Source of the DNA: Peltaster fructicola
Taxonomy: Eukaryota > Ascomycota > Dothideomycetes
Direction of reading: 5' to 3'
Length of the DNA: 64,000 bases
Assembly: GCA_001592805.2 (NCBI GenBank)
Contig: CP051139.1
Location: 744,001-808,000 of the forward strand
Part shown: positions 1,263 through 13,996 of the stretch, piece by piece
Position numbering within the stretch: the stretch's first letter is position 1
How the letters are laid out: the number at the start of each line of letters is the position of its first letter
Notes under the pieces: model-generated
Told to the model about the DNA's origin: nothing
What the model saw: only the letters and a program-made list of their open reading frames with translations
Database searches by the model: none
Program-made: the position numbers and the translations under genes

Positions 1263-3141
1263 TCAACTTGACTTGCTCGCAAGATATCTCAGCAGAGCTG
1301 CCTTCAGCTCTATCTTGTTCACCTTGCCGATGTTGGGATTGACAGGCCAATCGTCATAGCCAAGCTGCTTCAGCGTCACAGCACCACCTATCGCATAGTC
1401 TTTACCCAGAACCTCAACCACTTCGCTCTTCAGATCGTTCTCGGTCTTATCCTGAAAGCTTGACAGGATCGCGTATGGCTCAGCACCAAGTACCGGATGG
1501 TCAATGCCAATTACTGCAACCTAGTGCACGGTCAGCTCAGCTTCAATTCTCATCGATCTTCACTCACCACAGCACTTGTATATGCTGCCAGAGTTGTCTC
1601 CAACACTGCTGGTGTGATAGGTATGGCAGCACGTTTGATTATGTCCTTGCTTCTGCCAAGGATGAAACAGTGACCTTTCTCGTCGATGATTGCAGTATCA
1701 CCTGTTTTCATCCAGTTCACACCGTCTTGAGTGTAAAAGTTCTGCGGGCTGACATTGTGCAGGTAGTTGCGTATGGTGATATAAGTATCGACATGCATCT
1801 CGCCAGGAGTGCCGCGTGGTACGATGTTGCCTGCACCTGTCAGTCTTTGTCTACGACACTTGATGCTTACTCGCCTTGCTCGTCCACAAGTTTGATATTG
1901 ACACCCTCACGTACAGTGCCAAACGATGGTACATCAGCATAGTAGACAATGTCTCCCTTGAAGAATGGCCAGTGGAAGAAGTTGCCTCCCTCAGACATTC
2001 CGAACACGTTGACGAACTTAGCATTGGGAAATATCGCCTGTGCCAGCTGTACAGTTGTGCGCGTGAGTATGTCGCCACCCATAGCTACTGTTGCGACACT
2101 GCCATTCCTGCTTACATCTAAGGAGGGATGCGTGGCAATGGCGTGCAGTTGTGCTGGAAACAGAATCATGTCGGTGACTTGGAGCTGTGCGACTGCATCG
2201 ATCGCTCCTGCAGGTGCTGCGGAAGGCCCGGCTATTATCATGGTATCGCCATCTCCCCAGGTAGCCAGTGAGACCAGCGGCAAGACTGCCCGGAAGTTCG
2301 CAGAGTGGATGAGTCGTCGAGAAGGAGTGGTTTTGTCTGCTTTCGGGGCCGCTCCAAGACCATGCAGCAGAGTGAGGACGTTGCGTGGACATCCTTTTGG
2401 TCGTCCGACTGAGCTGCCACTTGTAAAGAGTGTAAGAGCAGTCCGATCATGGTTGTCCGATCGAGCGCTCTCAAGGATTGCAGCTTCGGCTGATGCATCG
2501 ATCTTTGGCCCATAGCTATCGAGTTCTGACCAACCTTGGGGAACAGCAGCGCTCTTATCTGAAGGAGAGACAAGCTTAACAGGCACCACAACACCCGTTG
2601 CCTTAATGGCTGCATCGACTGCTGCAGCACCTGCATTATCAGCAACGATGATTACTGCTGGTTGAAGTTCTTCCAGAAAACCTTCCAGCTGAACCTTGCG
2701 GGCGTCTTGGAGAAGCCCAAGATCGAGTGAGGCCATGTTCATCTTGGCCAAAATGCTTGTAAAGAAGCTCAAACACCAGTCAACACCATTTGGCAATATT
2801 GGTGATATCGTCGATCCTTCCTTGATGGCAGCATTCTTCAGTGCAGCTGTTAATCGCACAGCGCCCTGATGGAGCTGCTGGTATGTCCAGGTCAAGTTCC
2901 CAGAGACACCATTCGTAGATTGACCGGCAGAGCTTCCCACAATGTTGGCTAGATGAGACGAAGATTGGTGCATGGTCTGAACAGCTGCCTTCTTCCAGTT
3001 CTTGCGAAAAGGCTCCTCGAGAGCAGCGTATAATGATGGCTCGTATTCAAGACGGCCATTGTCGATGTGTGAAAGACAAGTGCTGGCTACCATGCTGATG
3101 GACTTCCTTGTGATATAGTAGCATGATGGTGGACATTGCAA
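1263..3141 (-). CDS. AMP-dependent acyl-CoA synthetase/ligase family protein
   Basis: Adenylates a carboxylic acid with ATP and usually transfers it to CoA; the substrate is unknown. Core motifs are visible in order: P-loop-like TLFTSGSSVGRPKG, the aromatic motif NVFGMSEGG, WMKTGDTAIIDEKG (ATP ribose-binding Asp), GRSKDIIKR (hinge), and near the C-terminus NIGKVNKIELK with the expected catalytic Lys. There are at least three exons: exon 1 from 3141 to about 1875, exon 2 from about 1837 to 1568, exon 3 from 1520 to 1263. The second intron is clean (GTGAGT...CTAG). The first joint is awkward: keeping the conserved residues on both sides in frame allows only a gap of about 20-26 bp, while the canonical alternative (GTGAGG...GTGCAG, about 80 bp) would remove a conserved stretch. 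No peroxisomal SKL-type ending is seen (it ends KSS). A later Met (MVAST) may be the true start. Confidence 0.8.
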
Positions 3142-4731
3142 TCGATGTCCATTTTATAGCTCGCCACGCTATGAGGTATGGATCACGGATCGCATCGTTC
3201 TTACGTTATATGACCATCTGACGTCTTACGAATGACGACAAACGGTACTTTCGTACTGCATGCCCACAGATCCATTGGCGTCTGGTTGACGGTAAAGCAG
3301 CAGACTCCACGGCTAAAAGAATGACCGAATGACCGACAGCTGAGCTGGACGAGAATATGATAGAAAGAAGATATTGCTCACTCGCTAATGCAGGTTAGTG
3401 ATCTGCACTCCAGGATGACCGGGGCTCTGCAGTAGGAAACATGGGGCCAAGGAGACAACATGGGGCGAAAAAAGGACTGCATGCTTACAAACGATGGAAG
3501 CTGTATTGCGTCGCACACTTTGGAATGCAAGCCCAGCAAATCATTCTCCACTGACCATTCAACGTGATCGCTGTGTGTCTCCCGCATCATTACCTTGAGT
3601 GACTGTCTCACTCAGGAGGGATCTGCGAATGTATCATGACCTCAGGCGGTTGTCATCGGGGCTTTGTTGCTGCTGCAGTGGTGCCGGTCACCACTCTGAC
3701 GTGTGACTGCTCGCGCATTCGCATCAAGTCATCCAACCAGGTACGTTGCTAGCATTCCACTGGGTCATATCGGCAGAGCGTCCCATGGATGCCGTTGTCA
3801 CGAGTACACATGTATGTTCTAGGAGACTGTGTCGAGTTGAAGGTATCAGGAACATGCATTTTGTGATGAATGTAGCATGCAACTGCCGAATGCATTAGTC
3901 CTTAACGTACTCATACTGCACCACCGACATCACTACCGACGAACACTATATCCGGTCGGTGACGCAGTGGTTCGCAGTGTCGGATTGTATACCAGCGAGA
4001 TGCAATGACACAAAGCAGTCGAGACATCCAATTTGCCCTCAAGAGTCGAGACATGATCGTCACAGCTATGCACTGCACAGTTCGGCATAGCGTATGGCAA
4101 AGCACGGTCTGCTCATGTTTGACGTGTGATGAGCATGCTCCGGCCCCAAGGGAATGCAAGGTGGCGTAATGCATGAAGCACAGCTGAGACCTGCTGCGAA
4201 GACCATGCAATCTTCAGAGCTGTACTATCAGGGTTCTGCGACCATCTCACAAGTGCCGTTTGGTGAAGACATTTCCCATGCCGTGCGAGACTTGCTGGGG
4301 TGTAGCAGATCACGAGGGCCACGATCTGATGGCAGCGGTCCGCACGAACTGATGGTTCCGTCAGTAGGTCGTAGTGATGTGAAAAGTAATGAAGTCATCG
4401 TGCTGTGGGTGTTGTGATCTGTAACAGAACCATTGTCGCTCTTGTCAGCGTAAAGCGACGAGATAAGAGGAGAGCAGCCAGATGTAAGTGCTGGAGTGTT
4501 GCATGTATCACGCCACAGAATATCTGAGACCATAGGCGGCAGTATCCGCTCGGCCGTATCGCTGAACCACAGTTGCGCTTGCTACAAGGCAGCAGAATAC
4601 TGACCCGCCTAGTGGCCAGCATCTAGGCGGCAGATTCGCTATAGACAACTCGACCTCGCTGCTTCGCTGCGACAACTTCATAGTCATCATGCGCCACGCA
4701 TGAGAACCGCAACACGAACATCACTACAACC
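3142..4731. other. 1.6-kb divergent intergenic region
   Basis: Lies between the adenylating-enzyme gene (minus) and the HeLo-pseudokinase-protease gene (plus), so it must contain both promoters. The scattered short ORFs on both strands have no protein-like character. I see no repeat or RNA gene. Confidence 0.5.
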
Positions 4732-7700
4732 ATGGACGCCTATAGGAATGCGCCTCTCGTGCATGGGCGCACGACTCACCTCACGAAGCTCTACTCAGAT
4801 GTCAAGCAAAGCGCAGTGAAGCAGAGCGCAGTTACAACTCTTGATGTCAAGTCCTTTCTCAGTCAGCAAGCTGCCACAGAGCAATTCAGCGCACTCCATC
4901 GCAAGTTCAGGATCCAAAAGGACCGCCTGGTCACCTGGGGTCTAGAATGGGACGATGAAGGCAAAGGCGCTGAGACCAACATCGACGAGACTGTTGAGCG
5001 AGCCGGCTTGACGGAGACGGTGACCAGCGTTCTCGCCAACGTCAAAGAAGTTACAGATGAACTCGAAAAGGTTCGCAGTGGTGTCTCTAAGCCTGGCGAG
5101 AAATATCAGCCGTCGATCTTCGATGAAGAACGATATGGCGACCTACTCAGCGATCTCACAGCATCCATCGATACGTTGTATGATCTCTCACGGACACGAA
5201 GAGCTCTGGTCCGAGGCGAGCATCCAATGCTGAGCAACACAACACAACAACAAGCAACACAATCCACGCCTATGTCTAAACGACAATCCAAGGCTCCAAG
5301 CTTTGCAGACAGCGATATAACATCAGCTCCTGCAGCACCTCGGGCCGTATACTCGCCATATGTCGGCTTACCACCTATAATCGACCCTTCGGCGCTGCGC
5401 ATGCCAGCCGAGAGTCCTCCACCCTACGAGCCTCCTGGTGTACCAATGGCGTCTCGACTAATCGCCAACCTCATCCGCGCACGAGCACCAGAAGAAGTGC
5501 GTAACGCTATGGGCAGCGACAATGCGGAGGTGCCTGTGCTTGTCGAATATGCAGACTTCGACCCAGCATATCGCCAGACCGGCGTGCCACCACCACTACA
5601 AAGAATTGAGGATCTATCCAGGACGTTCCCACCTATGCGTCCAGAATCGCAATCGAACCTTAGCCTGCTTGGCTACTTTGAGGATCCTAGACAGCCTCGT
5701 GTCGGACTAGTATATGACCTACCATATTCTGTGCAAAACAGGCTTCTCAGTAATCCTGCACGCAGAACAGAGAACATGGCACCTTTGAGCCTTCTCAGGT
5801 TGTTAAGAAAGCAAGATAGGACGACAGCAAATGCCGGCCAGTCAGATGCACCACCTCTCGAAGCACGCTTCAAGTTAGCTTTACGCCTTGCCGAGCAGCT
5901 GTATATGTTGCACTTGCAGGAGCTACCTCATGGTAACATCAACAGTAGCAGCGTACTTTTTGCCACAGCGAATAACGAGTCCACATTCACACGCATGAAA
6001 CAACTACGAGCGCCGATGTGGGCATCTTTCAACATCTTTCCACACTCATTGGGCGGGCCAGTGAGAGCTCCACACAACATATACAAGCACCCTCAGGAGG
6101 GTGAGAATTCAGCCGGAGATGGTCTGAAATACGACATGTATGCTTTCGCATTGCTACTGGTAGAGATCGGACTGTGGGCACCTCTCGGCGACTTCTACAA
6201 GCCAAAGTACAGTGCAGCGGATTTCAAGTTACGAATCGAAAAGCTCTGGATTCCCAAGCTCGCAGAACGTTGTGGTAGTGCATACATGCGAGCAGTTCAA
6301 GCATGCATTCGCAACGTCGATTCTGGAGAGCTGACAACAGAAGGCATGTTTGGCTACATCTTCGACAATCTACGCAAATGCTGCGCTCTTGATGAAGATA
6401 CTGAAGACCTTACGCCCTCATCACCATTCACCTCGCCTCAGCAGGAGTATCAGTCATTCGTACCATCGAACGTGGCTGTCACAGCACCTGTATTCACACG
6501 ACATGTAGAGGCACCACTCGCTCGAGGCGCTGAACTCGATCCGAACTTGCTGAGCCCGACGCTCTCGATGAAAGACTTCAAGAGAAGAGTTACGCAGATT
6601 CAGCGTCAATGGCGAAAGTACCGCTCATGGCTACGAGAGATACAGACGATTCCCGATGACGAAGCGATTGCACGAAAGCTGTCGGAGATGGAGAATGCAG
6701 ATGTCGCCGAAGCTGTACCTGCGCCTGCACCTGCATCTGCACAGCCCAAGACGAATCTATCAGAGTTCCCATTTCTCGAAATCCCTAAGGCTATTGTCGA
6801 AGACTGGAATAATGGTACTGCCGTGGAGTTGTCCCGCATTGTCAACAGAGCATTGAAAGGAACCAGAGAGTCGTGTTCGATAACACTGACATCTTTTGGA
6901 GAGACGCTCGAAACAGCTCGACCAACATACCTCGTCACCTGTGCATCGACGAAGATTGTGAAGGCTATGCTAAAGCGACACTTCAGGTGCGATCCAGCAT
7001 CATGCTATGTGCGCGTGGAGAAGGGTAAGGTCACCCGTTGTAGAAAGGCAAGGCCTATCTCAGCTGCTAGGGCAGCCACACGCAGTATGGCACCACGATA
7101 CGATCTGGACAGTGACGCAGTCAATTCTGACTACCAGCCACAACCAATGTGTGGTGCATCTATTGGTGCGTACAAAGACGAAGAACACCTCCCACCAGTG
7201 TCTTTCGGAGGCGTTGTCGTCATCGACGGCAAGTCGTATGGCATGAGTGTGCACCATATGCTCGAAGCCGATGAAGACGAAGAGGAGGATGACATTGATG
7301 AAGATGACGAAGAGGGGTCAGATACTGCTAGTCTGGTTGATGTCGGCGAGAATGCTGAGCTGCTACTATCTGATGATGGCAGCACGATTCGTGAGCTCTC
7401 TGTGGCATCGGACATCAGTCTTGACGAAGAGACGCAGTTCGCAGGCGATGTTGGTGGTATTGCTCCTGGCGAGGGCCTCGACATCGATATCACTCAACCT
7501 GCCCTCGACGACGCGATCGCCCAAAATCTGCATGCTGAGCAGAGCGACTCCGAGTCCGGTTCGGATTCTGGTGTAGATGAGGACCATATCTTGTCATACA
7601 AGCTTGGCCAAGTACACGCATCGTCCGGCTTGAAACGAAGCGCTACCAAAGGGACTGAAGAAGGATACAAAGGCATCAGTTCAAGTCTGCCACAAGAAAT

Positions 7701-8304
7701 TGACTGGGCGTTGTTCGAACTTCTCCCACCTCGAGTGCAGCCTTACAACATCGTCAAGGGCGGACAACAGTATTGTGACGGGCCTGCTGACGGCCAGGAC
7801 TCAATCCCAACAAGCATCCGAGGCAGTTCTCAGCTCGCTGGTGCCAAAGTACACTGTCTAGGCAGGACAAGTGGTCTATCGAGTGGCACTGTCTCCTCAG
7901 CCATGGAGCTTCTTAGACTGCAAGGTCGAACTACGTTCTCGGCCAGCTGGGCTGTCCATGGCGGTTTCGGAGTTGGAGGCGACTCCGGAGCCTGGGTCAT
8001 TGATAGCGAGAACTTGGTCGTCGGGCATGTTCTCGCAGAGAGAAACGGAAGGACATTCATCTGTCCAATGGACCTTCTCTTTGACGACATGAGGTCTACA
8101 CTGGGAGCGAAGAATATCTCTCTGCCTATACCGTCAAAGAACACTGAAGGCGGCTGGTTCATACAGGACACCGTTGCCGACGCGGTGTCACGCCTACGAT
8201 TGAACGACAACGATGGAGGAGTCGCTGTGCCATATTCGCCGGCTGCCTCACAACACGGAGGCGAACTCGCCCATAACATGGCACCATTGCAGTCTGCTCG
8301 TTGA
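4732..8304 (+). CDS. HeLo-like / pseudokinase / trypsin-like protease fusion protein
   Basis: An intronless 1190-residue protein with three recognisable parts. Residues about 1-150 resemble HeLo/HET-S-type helical domains, including the HRKFRIQKDRLVTWGLEW stretch typical of that fold, but the usual hydrophobic N-terminal helix is absent. Residues about 330-560 look like a kinase fold: LRLAEQLYMLHLQELPHGN sits where the catalytic loop should be, with HGN (400-402) replacing HRD, followed by a YDMYAFALLLVEIGLW helix; this is probably a pseudokinase. Residues about 780-1160 look like a chymotrypsin-fold protease: His 841/842 in SVHHML, Asp 991 in IDWALFEL, and Ser 1085 in VGGDSGAWVID, the GDSG nucleophile motif. 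A long acidic insert follows the His. Known: HeLo domains in fungi act in incompatibility cell death. Inferred: a cytosolic signalling or death protein with a protease output. The ATG at 4732 has good context (accATGG). Confidence 0.8.
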   Translation: MDAYRNAPLVHGRTTHLTKLYSDVKQSAVKQSAVTTLDVKSFLSQQAATEQFSALHRKFRIQKDRLVTWGLEWDDEGKGAETNIDETVERAGLTETVTSVLANVKEVTDELEKVRSGVSKPGEKYQPSIFDEERYGDLLSDLTASIDTLYDLSRTRRALVRGEHPMLSNTTQQQATQSTPMSKRQSKAPSFADSDITSAPAAPRAVYSPYVGLPPIIDPSALRMPAESPPPYEPPGVPMASRLIANLIRARAPEEVRNAMGSDNAEVPVLVEYADFDPAYRQTGVPPPLQRIEDLSRTFPPMRPESQSNLSLLGYFEDPRQPRVGLVYDLPYSVQNRLLSNPARRTENMAPLSLLRLLRKQDRTTANAGQSDAPPLEARFKLALRLAEQLYMLHLQELPHGNINSSSVLFATANNESTFTRMKQLRAPMWASFNIFPHSLGGPVRAPHNIYKHPQEGENSAGDGLKYDMYAFALLLVEIGLWAPLGDFYKPKYSAADFKLRIEKLWIPKLAERCGSAYMRAVQACIRNVDSGELTTEGMFGYIFDNLRKCCALDEDTEDLTPSSPFTSPQQEYQSFVPSNVAVTAPVFTRHVEAPLARGAELDPNLLSPTLSMKDFKRRVTQIQRQWRKYRSWLREIQTIPDDEAIARKLSEMENADVAEAVPAPAPASAQPKTNLSEFPFLEIPKAIVEDWNNGTAVELSRIVNRALKGTRESCSITLTSFGETLETARPTYLVTCASTKIVKAMLKRHFRCDPASCYVRVEKGKVTRCRKARPISAARAATRSMAPRYDLDSDAVNSDYQPQPMCGASIGAYKDEEHLPPVSFGGVVVIDGKSYGMSVHHMLEADEDEEEDDIDEDDEEGSDTASLVDVGENAELLLSDDGSTIRELSVASDISLDEETQFAGDVGGIAPGEGLDIDITQPALDDAIAQNLHAEQSDSESGSDSGVDEDHILSYKLGQVHASSGLKRSATKGTEEGYKGISSSLPQEIDWALFELLPPRVQPYNIVKGGQQYCDGPADGQDSIPTSIRGSSQLAGAKVHCLGRTSGLSSGTVSSAMELLRLQGRTTFSASWAVHGGFGVGGDSGAWVIDSENLVVGHVLAERNGRTFICPMDLLFDDMRSTLGAKNISLPIPSKNTEGGWFIQDTVADAVSRLRLNDNDGGVAVPYSPAASQHGGELAHNMAPLQSAR

Positions 8305-8604: not shown

Positions 8605-9269
8605 ATGGGATCGACCTCAACGTCGTTTGCACCGCTCAACGGAGCTGCAAACGCATATGCTGAGCACCGAGATGATGCTCGTGCAAGTCCAACAAGAGTC
8701 AAGAACCGACGACGCAGATACCTGGATCTGCATCCGGAGTACTTCCATAACGATGGTAGAGAGCTAGCAGGTGCACAATGTTTGCCCTGTAGCAGAGCGT
8801 AAGACCAATGATGCATGCAGATCCGTTACTATACGACAGACTCGTTCGGCGATTCATGACAACAGAAGAGCGCGAGACCCATGGACAAGATCGTAGTCTT
8901 GCGAGTATGCTTGAAGCGAACCTCACCAGATCAGAGGCGAAGATTGAAGCGCTAGAGCATCCTGATCCTGACGATCCACTCGTGTATGTCAAGACAGATG
9001 ATGGCACGATCGTTGGCATAGAGCGTGACGAGGCCGCAAGACCTGACAATAGGGAAGATGCTTGGGAAAGATGGAAGGACTACATTACACAGAAGTTCTT
9101 GCAAGGTAAGGATGAAGATGCCGACTATACCGCGATCGATGAGAACGAGGCATATGACGATAGTGCTGAGGAGGATAGAGGTAGGTTGGAAAGATATACC
9201 GATGCGCAAGAGGAGCAGTTCGTGGGCAATGCTTCGCCGATGGGTGAGACAGGCGTACAAGACTTCTGA
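8605..9269 (+). CDS. CCDC97-like C-terminal domain (DUF2052) protein
   Basis: Two exons, 8605-8770 and 8821-9269, joined across a 50-bp GTGCAC...GCAG intron, giving 204 residues. The joint restores the conserved run YFHNDGRELADPLLYDRLV, followed by GQDRSLASMLEANLTRSEAK, which is the signature of the CCDC97 C-terminal domain. The tail is acidic (DEDADYTAIDENEAYDD). The human relative is reported with the SF3b branch-site recognition machinery, so a nuclear role in splicing is plausible; nothing in the sequence proves it. The neighbours are unrelated. The start at 8605 is the first ATG of an otherwise protein-like exon. Confidence 0.82.
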
Positions 9270-10743: not shown

Positions 10744-11725
10744 TCATGTGGCAATGCCTACATCAATGCCAGTGCTTTTGCCCTTCACCCCAATCTTGTC
10801 TGCCTCGTGTTCGTGGAGTGCAACACCCTGCTGCCTCGCTTTTTCTGTGATGACCTTAAGTGCCTTGAGCATGGTCTCGCGCACTTCGACCGTCAAAGCA
10901 TCGACATCCTCGAATGTCTTGCCTTTCGTCTCAATTGGGTTGAGCACTGTCAAAGGCACGGTACCTGGGCGGAAGATCTTCCTTGGAATGCTGACCAAAT
11001 TGGAGTAGTTGGCTACGACAACTGGCACGATGGGCACCTGCGCCTGAATGGCGAGATGGAAGGCTCCCTTCTTGAATGGAAGCAAGTCTGGCTTGGCATA
11101 GTTGCTCCTGGTACCTTCGGGAAAGATGTAGACTGACTGTCGATCTTGCTTCATTTCTGCTGCAGCCTTGTCAAACGCCGCGAATGCCTGAGTACGTGAA
11201 GTTCGCTCGATAAAGACGGTCTTGCTCGCTGCCACTATGGAGTTTGTCAGCCACGTCTTCTTTCAATCATGATCAATACATACTGAACCATCCAAGGAAC
11301 GGCCAGTACTTCAAGCTCTTCTTTGCGGTTACCGAGCAGTACTTGGGAAAGATGTGGCCCAGGAACAGGACATCGAGCTCTGTCTGGTGGTTGCCTACGA
11401 ACACAGCAGGGCGAATAGTGTTCAGGTAATCATTGGGATCATCGATTGAGAACCACATCCCCGTAACCACCCACATAGTCCACTTGAAGCTTCTCGCTGT
11501 AGTCCATTGTCCCAAGCCACCTTTGCCTGCCGCACTCAAGCCTGCCGATGCTATTGTTCCATATGTTGCGCAAATGAAGAGAGCTGTGAAAGAGGCGAAG
11601 AGTCGTGCCCAGTATTCGACGAGGTGGTTGTTGATTGCCGTGCCAACACGGGCGAGGACCTGCAGGAAGATGATCCATGCCAGCAACCCTGTGAGGAACG
11701 TGGTGAAGGCGTTGAGGGTGTTCAT
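10744..11725 (-). CDS. SLC1: 1-acyl-sn-glycerol-3-phosphate acyltransferase (LPAAT)
   Basis: Acylates lysophosphatidate to phosphatidate in the ER or lipid-droplet membrane, in glycerolipid synthesis. Two exons (11284-11725 and 10744-11234) joined across a 49-bp GTATGT...ATAG intron give 310 residues; the joint creates the usual GWFMAASKTVFIER. PlsC motifs are intact: NHQTELD (residues 112-118, catalytic His and Asp) and FPEGTRS (around residue 187, glycerol-phosphate binding), then VPIVPVVV. Two or three N-terminal hydrophobic segments anchor it. The length matches yeast Slc1. The gene converges with the dioxygenase gene, with only about 50 bp between their stops. Confidence 0.93.
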
Positions 11726-12389: not shown

Positions 12390-13996
12390 TCATGGTGGCA
12401 GGACAGGTATCTCCCGCTGTTCTCTTCGCACTCGTCGCAGCTCTTTCTCAAGCGCCCAGCCATCAGGTCGCTCTCCGTTCTGCCAACCTTCAGCAAGCTT
12501 TCGCTTCCTCTTGCGCCGTGTGTTAGATTTACCACTGACCATTTCCTTGATGAAGTCCGGAGGCTCGATCATACGAGCATCACTGAGCATCTGCTCAAAC
12601 TGCCAACCAAGAGGATACCGCGACACATCGCTTGAATAGCGTGTGCAGGGAGACCGCAGGAATGGCAGCACCCACGAATGAACCCTTGTCCCGAAGACTG
12701 ATGTCAGGTTGTCCCTCCAGCCGATGTCCCACGGATTCATGCCCTGTGGTGTCTTGAGAATGGCGAACGTGCGACGTGCAGATACCGGATGGTCTTCAGG
12801 GCCAAGCGGGTAAGTGATCGTGCCTTGCCAGATGGATGCAGCAAGCTCGTCTCGAGATCGACGTCGTGGTCGTGAAGGTCGTTCACTGCTGAAATAGCTG
12901 GCGTGTGATGGGTCGTCGATCTCTGAAGTCAAGGGTAGCTCGCTGCCTGCTGTTCTGCTGGGAGTCTGGGTTGGCGAAGGCGTCTGGCCTGTGAGTCCCT
13001 GGAGATCTGGAGGCAGAATGACAGCAATGTACATTGATCGTGCCCCTTTGTCGATATTCTCGACTGTCGTAAGGTTCGACAGCGTGAGCTGAATCGAGGT
13101 CATCGCCAATCCCGCTGTGAAGACGGCGAAGAAGCCACCAAGACCAAGAACGACAACCCACTGCACGTCGCCAACTGTGCCAGTCTAACAGAGTCAGTGC
13201 TTGTTTCCGCAGTGTCTGGAGTCCATACCTTGCGCTCGGCTTCCGCGATAAAGTATGCCATAACAATCATGGCGTACAGCGAGAACGTGGCCGCATAGAT
13301 GTTGAACTGCACGAAGAACTTGTATCCATTCTCGCCAACCATACCACCCACCCATGGACAAAAGTGATCCATCTTCTTCACGCACCTTCCGACATCCCGA
13401 CTGTGATGGACACGATCAGCCTTCCAAACGCCGCATGTGTGGCACCACATAGGCAGGCCATTCCTGTCGCAAACGAATGCATCCTTCGAATAGAACTCCT
13501 CAGTGCCTGGCGGAGGAATCGCACCTCGTCGCAGTATGCCCTCATAGTCTAGTTGCGCCAGCTCTTGACCATCTGTTACATGCGTCGGTACGCATGACTG
13601 TAGTGTTTTCTTCTCGCGAATCGGCTTTTCGAGGTTGTCGACAGGAGTTGAGTGTTGCGGTACATAGCCAGGGGCGAAAGAAACGATGTACAAGAGTCGG
13701 AAGTAGCACGATGCCATGAGTATTAAGAGTAAAAAGAAGACAATAGGCAATGCAATGCCGATCGCCATGCGCCGCTGGACGCCAGCATCCGGAGGCGCGT
13801 TAAGAAGGTAGTTCACTATACCCCTTAGCTATGCGGTGATGTCCGACGCCGAGCACAACATACCACATAATGGACCGACAAAGACGTAGCTGGCGTATGC
13901 TACGACAAGGATCAGGAACACTGGGATGAACTTGGCGACGATGATGTTCGTGCGCTGGCGCTTCCGCAGCCGTTCGTGCTCGTCGATGACCGCCAT
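12390..13996 (-). CDS. PFA5: Protein S-palmitoyltransferase, PFA5-type (DHHC family)
   Basis: Transfers palmitate to cysteines of target proteins at intracellular membranes. Three exons (13864-13996, 13229-13815, 12390-13184) give 504 residues. Exon 1 holds the first membrane helix (AKFIPVFLILVVAYASYVFV); TM2 and TM3 flank a cytosolic loop. The zinc cysteine-rich domain runs through WCHTCGVWKADRVHHSRDVG and RCVKKMDHFCPWVGGMVGEN, with DHFC (about residues 194-197) instead of DHHC, a substitution I associate with the fungal PFA5 branch. The catalytic Cys is present. The last exon gives a further helix and a long cytosolic tail rich in basic and proline residues. Start: ATG at 13996 begins a basic-amphipathic leader just before TM1. 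Confidence 0.88.

Follow-up and report, generated by a model that had tools for sequence, protein, structure and literature searches.

Within the window, the 64,000-nucleotide stretch of the Peltaster fructicola genome analysed here, the forward strand carries one open frame at positions 4732–8304 that encodes a protein of 1,190 aa, in agreement with the single gene originally predicted there. A search of the organism's own genome (18.99 Mb, 5 contigs, the window lying at C1:744001–808000) yielded one match to this protein. The motif positions given in the original prediction were exact (WG at 69–70, HGN at 400–402, HH at 841–842, D991, and S1085 in GGDSGA), and its reading of the domains as HeLo-like, pseudokinase and serine protease, with no killer helix, was borne out by Pfam, alignment, hydropathy and structural models. 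Coordinates of all features are collected in Table 1.

Table 1 Features of the gene; positions are counted from the first nucleotide of the window, residues from the start of the protein
Feature	Position	Strand	Basis
Coding frame of the very probable SltB orthologue, intronless	4732..8304	+	Translation, 1,190 aa; aligned with 47 relatives; single own-genome match
HeLo-type helical domain without N-terminal hydrophobic helix, residues 49–160	4876..5211	+	PF14479, conservation, hydropathy
Pseudokinase domain, residues about 207–556	5350..6399	+	E272 at VAIK Lys, HGN at HRD, F-N-I-F at DFG
IQ-like motif I-Q-x-x-W-R in linker, residues 615–630, lineage-restricted	6574..6621	+	Pattern counts
Alpha/beta domain ahead of protease, residues 685–775	6784..7056	+	Aligned with N-terminal part of NAL1
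Chymotrypsin-fold serine protease, residues 797–1135	7120..8136	+	C-terminal model and fold searches
H841-H842, H842 proposed as catalytic His	7252..7257	+	Both in 48/48; H842 presumed from motif
Acidic insert, residues 845–917, between catalytic His and Asp	7264..7482	+	Composition, 40% D+E
D991 in E-I-D-W, proposed catalytic Asp	7702..7704	+	48/48, also two 42-row alignments
S1085 in GDSGA, proposed nucleophile	7984..7986	+	48/48, also two 42-row alignments

N-terminal HeLo-like domain and pseudokinase

When scanned alone against the HeLo family PF14479, residues 1–172 scored 24.0 bits, just over the cut-off of 23.2 bits; the whole protein remained below it (18 bits, E 0.0028), and its match starts at position 30 of the 205 profile positions. 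The same profile matched 13 of 13 N-terminal pieces at E ≤ 1, with 3.4e-10 as the best value. In a whole-protein Pfam scan of seven relatives, HeLo exceeded the cut-off in five (P0239, P0334, P0330, P0325 and P0114), stayed below it in P0044 and gave no match in P0163, a truncated Trichophyton protein. The window gene itself was missed when its genome was searched with PF14479 and PF24476, indicating that the HeLo and DUF7580 similarities are weak at the sequence level. Comparison of the HeLo profile with L002, the sole HeLo protein of the same genome found by the PF14479 search, was likewise weak (hhalign probability 16.8%, P 0.0015, 30 columns), so that HeLo homology rests on Pfam. Against PDB sequences, the profile retrieved no HET-S or MLKL chain and gave three chance-like matches (best E 0.2). 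Judged by sequence, the N-terminus of the window protein qualifies as a HeLo domain homologue.

The hydrophobic N-terminal helix, which the original prediction had called missing, was indeed not found in any of the family members scored. A hydropathy scan covered 217 of the 225 proteins of at least 1,000 aa, namely those with WG within the first 120 residues (the window protein included), and in none of them did the mean hydropathy reach 1.0 over 17 residues ahead of the WG. The highest value was 0.92, compared to 1.96 in the canonical HeLo protein L002, in which the hydrophobic stretch is present. From the loss of this helix we infer that the HeLo domain serves assembly or regulation and not membrane damage.

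For the following segment, fold searches with the N-terminal model (pLDDT 77.8, pTM 0.63) placed a kinase fold. The 50 kinase rows listed did not include MLKL, which is uninformative either way. The position of the VAIK lysine is occupied by E in 46 and by D in two of the 48 aligned proteins (the window protein included). At the HRD position, H400 is found in 48/48, G401 in 38/48 and N402 in 39/48, with D in the other nine, and the F-N-I-F at the DFG position is mostly F-D-L-F in relatives. A DUF7580 match at residues 345–527 (19.6 bits) lies below its 27-bit cut-off.

C-terminal to the pseudokinase stands an IQ-like motif. The pattern [IVL]Q..[WY][RK] was counted within residues 501–900. Long proteins of the first homologue list have it in 107 of 111 cases, those of the third in one of 114. 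Of the seven relatives scanned, only P0114 gave a Pfam IQ match, which is not significant (E 0.72). Calmodulin binding through this motif in one lineage is possible.

Protease half and conservation among relatives

H841, H842, D991 and S1085 are invariant in all 48 aligned proteins, and the catalytic triad is probably H842-D991-S1085; H842 was taken to be the catalytic histidine by analogy with PA-clan motifs. Structure searches identified the C-terminal model (pLDDT 82.6, pTM 0.82) as chymotrypsin-like. With the His-Asp-Ser order, the GDSG motif and this predicted fold all present, the model identifies the domain as a PA-clan serine protease. The original prediction had named mismatching folds as the outcome that would count against it, and for the protease and kinase parts the models gave chymotrypsin-like and kinase folds. 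The acidic insert overlaps a low-confidence stretch of the model (195–227, corresponding to residues 869–901).

Structure comparison matched the model to NAL1 over both domains, alpha/beta and trypsin-like, at modest Foldseek TM-scores (0.38–0.43 by query length, rows 1–33). Two protease profiles (A3 and A8) found no protease chain and no NAL1 match among PDB sequences, and the relation to NAL1 is therefore structural only. The C-terminal half was placed by structure search alone, since Pfam and PDB sequence searches yielded no usable family; an NCBIfam scan of two proteins gave no match. A pseudo-protease or scaffold whose conserved triad is unused might be suspected from the short relative P0213, which has GDTGA instead of GDSGA. 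The invariance of the triad and the proteolysis reported for SltB (in the excerpts available of PMC11011638 and PMC5541321) speak against such a protein, which we consider extremely improbable.

The first homologue search found 522 relatives at E ≤ 1e-3, a similarity beyond chance. Among the 120 listed, the named matches belong to genera that we assign to Dothideomycetes, the closest named one being from Cladosporium fusiforme (55% identity over 97%). With the C-terminal half as query, 277 matches were obtained, the 120 listed including Trichophyton, Ascosphaera, Rhynchosporium, Cercophora and Colletotrichum. A third search, seeded with four Sordario-, Leotio- and Eurotiomycete fragments, gave 849 matches; many of the 120 listed are long proteins from Sordariomycetes, annotated as 'HET-s/LopB domain', 'protein kinase domain' or hypothetical. 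A precomputed HeLo domain (PF14479) is present in 95 of the 115 proteins newly listed in this search and absent from 20. With classes assigned by genus, the named matches listed span at least four classes. Many of the matches listed (120 each of 522, 277 and 849) are nameless, and the named ones are filamentous ascomycetes with the exception of P0274, labelled as a bacterial MAG. The combination of HeLo-like, pseudokinase and protease parts is not rare.

All three protease motifs were found in 220 of the 225 proteins of at least 1,000 aa; among the five lacking the full set, P0002 and P0086 stop ahead of the Ser motif. The C-terminal search contributed 118 new proteins of 331–813 aa among the matches listed, 108 of them with all three motifs (GDSG missing in six, VHH in four). 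With a slightly different pattern, the full set was present in 114 of the 115 proteins newly listed in the third search. Many of the 118 short proteins look like partial gene models.

Averaged over 47 relatives, identity to the window protein is highest in the protease (73% and 59% in its two parts) and the HeLo segment (61%). The pseudokinase follows with 50%, the alpha/beta domain with 48% and residues 1–48 with 43%, and linkers, acidic insert and tail reached 20–33%. The HeLo segment is thus clearly constrained.

Probable SltB orthology and the cell-death reading

According to excerpts of the published accounts, SltB of A. nidulans combines a pseudokinase with a chymotrypsin-like protease domain and undergoes auto-proteolysis, a step described as setting the pseudokinase portion free as a prodomain. 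The zinc-finger factor SltA (78 kDa) is then cleaved by SltB to a 32-kDa form, which acts in cation and alkaline-pH tolerance and in sltB expression (PMC4557415, PMC11011638, PMC5541321). Strains deleted for sltB are sensitive to cations and alkali and show vacuolar defects (PMC4557415). SltB is stated to be confined to Pezizomycotina, where it occurs together with SltA, and the authors regard the pathway as offering targets for antifungal drugs (excerpts of PMC4557415).

The window protein resembles SltB (AN6132) in size (1,190 vs 1272 aa), in the order pseudokinase then protease, in a conserved His and Ser that flank an Asp, in the spacing of mutated residues and in the loss of VAIK, HRD and DFG, the pseudokinase of SltB being described as devoid of all three (PMC4557415, in part). 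The null mutation sltB53 affects Phe-1126, 16 residues before Ser-1142, and sltB105 affects Gly-1156, 14 residues after it (PMC4557415, in part). The nearly invariant F1069 lies at exactly the sltB53 distance of 16 before S1085; the invariant G1098 lies 13 after it, one residue short of sltB105, so that a one-residue gap is needed. Colletotrichum, stated to carry an SltB homologue (excerpts of PMC5193415), gave full-length relatives in the third search. The single match obtained in the own genome also accords with SltB.

In SltB, the catalytic His is numbered both 925 and 939, and the Asp is unclear, with D1037, D1046 and D1049 as candidates (excerpts of PMC4557415). At the level of sequence, conservation points to the Asp of E-I/V-D-W as the catalytic one. 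The Asp–Ser distance is 94 in the window protein and 102–103 in two Eurotiomycete relatives; the published candidates lie 105, 96 and 93 before the Ser, distances that do not settle which corresponds to D991. By the Eurotiomycete spacing, D1037 would be the likeliest counterpart.

The two genes also differ. That of A. nidulans has an intron, whereas none is evident here, and five AGGCA sites (the SltA site) are reported upstream of A. nidulans sltB (excerpts of PMC4557415) compared to one in the 1,150 bp upstream of the window gene, where 2.7–3.2 were expected, i.e. no enrichment. Such sites would support, but do not define, an sltB gene. The last 200 bp upstream hold four AGGCA/AGGCG sites, with a chance of about 0.05–0.09 when examined post hoc. 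A zinc-finger search of the own genome gave 107 matches; among the 30 loci obtained with it and 12 further regions, none was nameable as SltA without a reference sequence. Excerpts of PMC4557415 state that no gene having the C-terminal part alone was found, in contrast to the 118 short proteins listed here.

Taken together, we conclude with high confidence that this filamentous ascomycete has its sltB orthologue in the window gene, which encodes a protein of a kind that is already known. This assignment draws on spacing, distribution and the published account by which A. nidulans SltB was compared.

Compatible with orthology to SltB is an assignment of the protease half to the Ssy5 kind (peptidase S64), with an inhibitory prodomain. 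Weak similarity to Ssy5 and the use of Ssy5–Stp1 as a working model were reported (excerpts of PMC4557415), and Pfam S64 (PF08192) weakly matched two of 21 family members (best E 0.46). However, a separate scan of eight members gave no S64 match at E ≤ 1, the predicted structure matches NAL1 across both domains, and the same excerpts state that homology to Ssy5 is without evidence, which makes membership in S64 rather unlikely.

The original prediction had proposed a death-pathway protein, in which an MLKL-like sensor of HeLo and pseudokinase parts fires a protease executioner. HeLo homology of the N-terminal pieces and the presence of a pseudokinase accord with this idea, and reviews report both HELL domains linked to kinases or pseudokinases and the presence of proteases in fungal death pathways (excerpts of PMC12881547 and PMC10197012). 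Against it stand the killer helix missing throughout the proteins scored, the single genome copy, the spread of relatives over at least four classes and the match to SltB, the published orthologue working in cation and alkali stress (PMC4557415, in part). HET-s/LopB domain proteins, in contrast, are said to vary extremely in sequence and in the number of copies (excerpts of PMC1325252). Nine neighbouring ORFs were scanned and showed no NLR, HET or gasdermin family, three of them being without any family match. A death-pathway role is therefore not supported and appears very unlikely. The front end is related to fungal cell-killing proteins, but as it is devoid of the membrane-attacking tip, the window protein is probably no death protein. 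The tempting reading is thus corrected to a known stress pathway, in which SltB is a protease that helps moulds withstand salt and alkaline stress.

For the SltB orthologue, the HeLo and pseudokinase parts may form a switch or scaffold that keeps the protease inactive, or near SltA, until stress arises; the helix-less HeLo domain would have a role in assembly or regulation. An MLKL-like front end controlling a protease output is possible, the reported output being transcription-factor processing. More tentatively, SltB may be a reused MLKL-type chassis: an ancestral HeLo-pseudokinase death protein would have lost its membrane helix and become fused to a NAL1-class protease, with its conformational switch retained but now releasing, under ion and alkali stress, a protease that processes a transcription factor. 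We regard this origin as conceivable, though somewhat less probable than not. If it is true, HeLo–HeLo contacts could connect stress signalling with fungal death proteins.

The analysis offers three testable additions to the knowledge on SltB: the HeLo domain has no membrane helix, a candidate is put forward for the catalytic Asp that had been unclear, and the protease half resembles NAL1. Neither HeLo nor NAL1 is mentioned in PMC4557415 or PMC11011638, nor is MLKL in PMC11011638. Our literature search retrieved no link of SltB to HeLo, MLKL or NAL1; we make no claim to priority, the 2016 SltB paper and supplements being outside its scope. No account of the HeLo/pseudokinase/protease architecture was found in the literature searched, including excerpts of PMC12881547, PMC10197012, PMC9815663 and PMC1325252, and none on DUF7580. 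The sole match for SltB combined with HeLo was an unrelated health-care paper.

Comparison with other known systems

Rice NARROW LEAF 1 (NAL1) and the window protein share an alpha/beta domain plus a trypsin-like domain and are 18% identical where the structures align. In addition, the window protein has HeLo and pseudokinase parts and a long acidic insert, none of which NAL1 is known to contain. Ssy5 (peptidase S64) is like SltB a protease that activates a transcription factor (excerpts of PMC4557415), but its sequence similarity to the family of the window protein is marginal.

From HET-S-type proteins, which are characterised by a hydrophobic, membrane-attacking N-terminal helix, the window protein is set apart by the lack of that helix. 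With MLKL and the fungal HeLo/HELL-pseudokinase proteins, it shares a HeLo-type bundle followed by a pseudokinase (by sequence, MLKL reached only E 0.97), but differs from them in lacking the membrane helix and in the added protease half. It hence falls outside the MLKL type, defined by a membrane-disrupting bundle and a pseudokinase gate without a protease domain. Should the HeLo-pseudokinase part gate the protease, a single switch design would be used for killing by one family and for stress signalling by another.

Linker and acidic insert of SltB

The stretch joining the pseudokinase to the protease half of SltB carries an IQ-like motif, which was observed in 107 of the 111 long proteins among the listed matches of the first protein search (120 of 522), compared to 1 of 114 among those listed for the third (120 of 849). 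The acidic insert differs in length among the aligned proteins and, speculatively, could be an element sensing cations or pH.

Features of the SltB protein and neighbouring ORFs, in window coordinates (families paired with ORF coordinates by listed order)
Feature	Position	Remark
ORF, MFS transporter family	306-926	
ORF, AMP-binding enzyme family	1867-3141	
AGGCA/AGGCG cluster	4534-4629	four sites, within 200 bp 5' of the sltB start codon
IQ-like motif	6574-6621	between pseudokinase and protease half
Acidic insert	7264-7482	73 residues, 40% D+E; between proposed catalytic His and Asp
ORF, CCD97-like family	8808-9269	
ORF, acyltransferase family	10744-11725	
ORF, DHHC family	13100-13816	

Surroundings of sltB

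The chance of the upstream AGGCA/AGGCG cluster, which was examined post hoc, was calculated to be about 0.05-0.09. A family scan near sltB covered nine ORFs of the window, three of which gave no family match.

Two relatives, and PF14479 and DUF7580 matches in P. fructicola

P0213, a short relative from Melanomma pulvis-pyrius (548 aa), features GDTGAW instead of GDSGAW, and is possibly an inactive paralogue or a gene-model fragment. Since residues 1-75 of P0274, filed under a Rickettsiales MAG, are identical to those of the fungal protein P0259, that assembly is likely contaminated with fungal sequence.

In the P. fructicola genome, the DUF7580 search yielded a single match (locus L003, 940-2565; C2:2937005-2937778), situated in a 541-aa frame. 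The sole PF14479 match of the genome search, which missed the sltB gene itself, was found at locus L002 (1441-2721; C2:3191545-3192198). This HeLo protein is of the canonical type, with a hydrophobic N-terminal helix.
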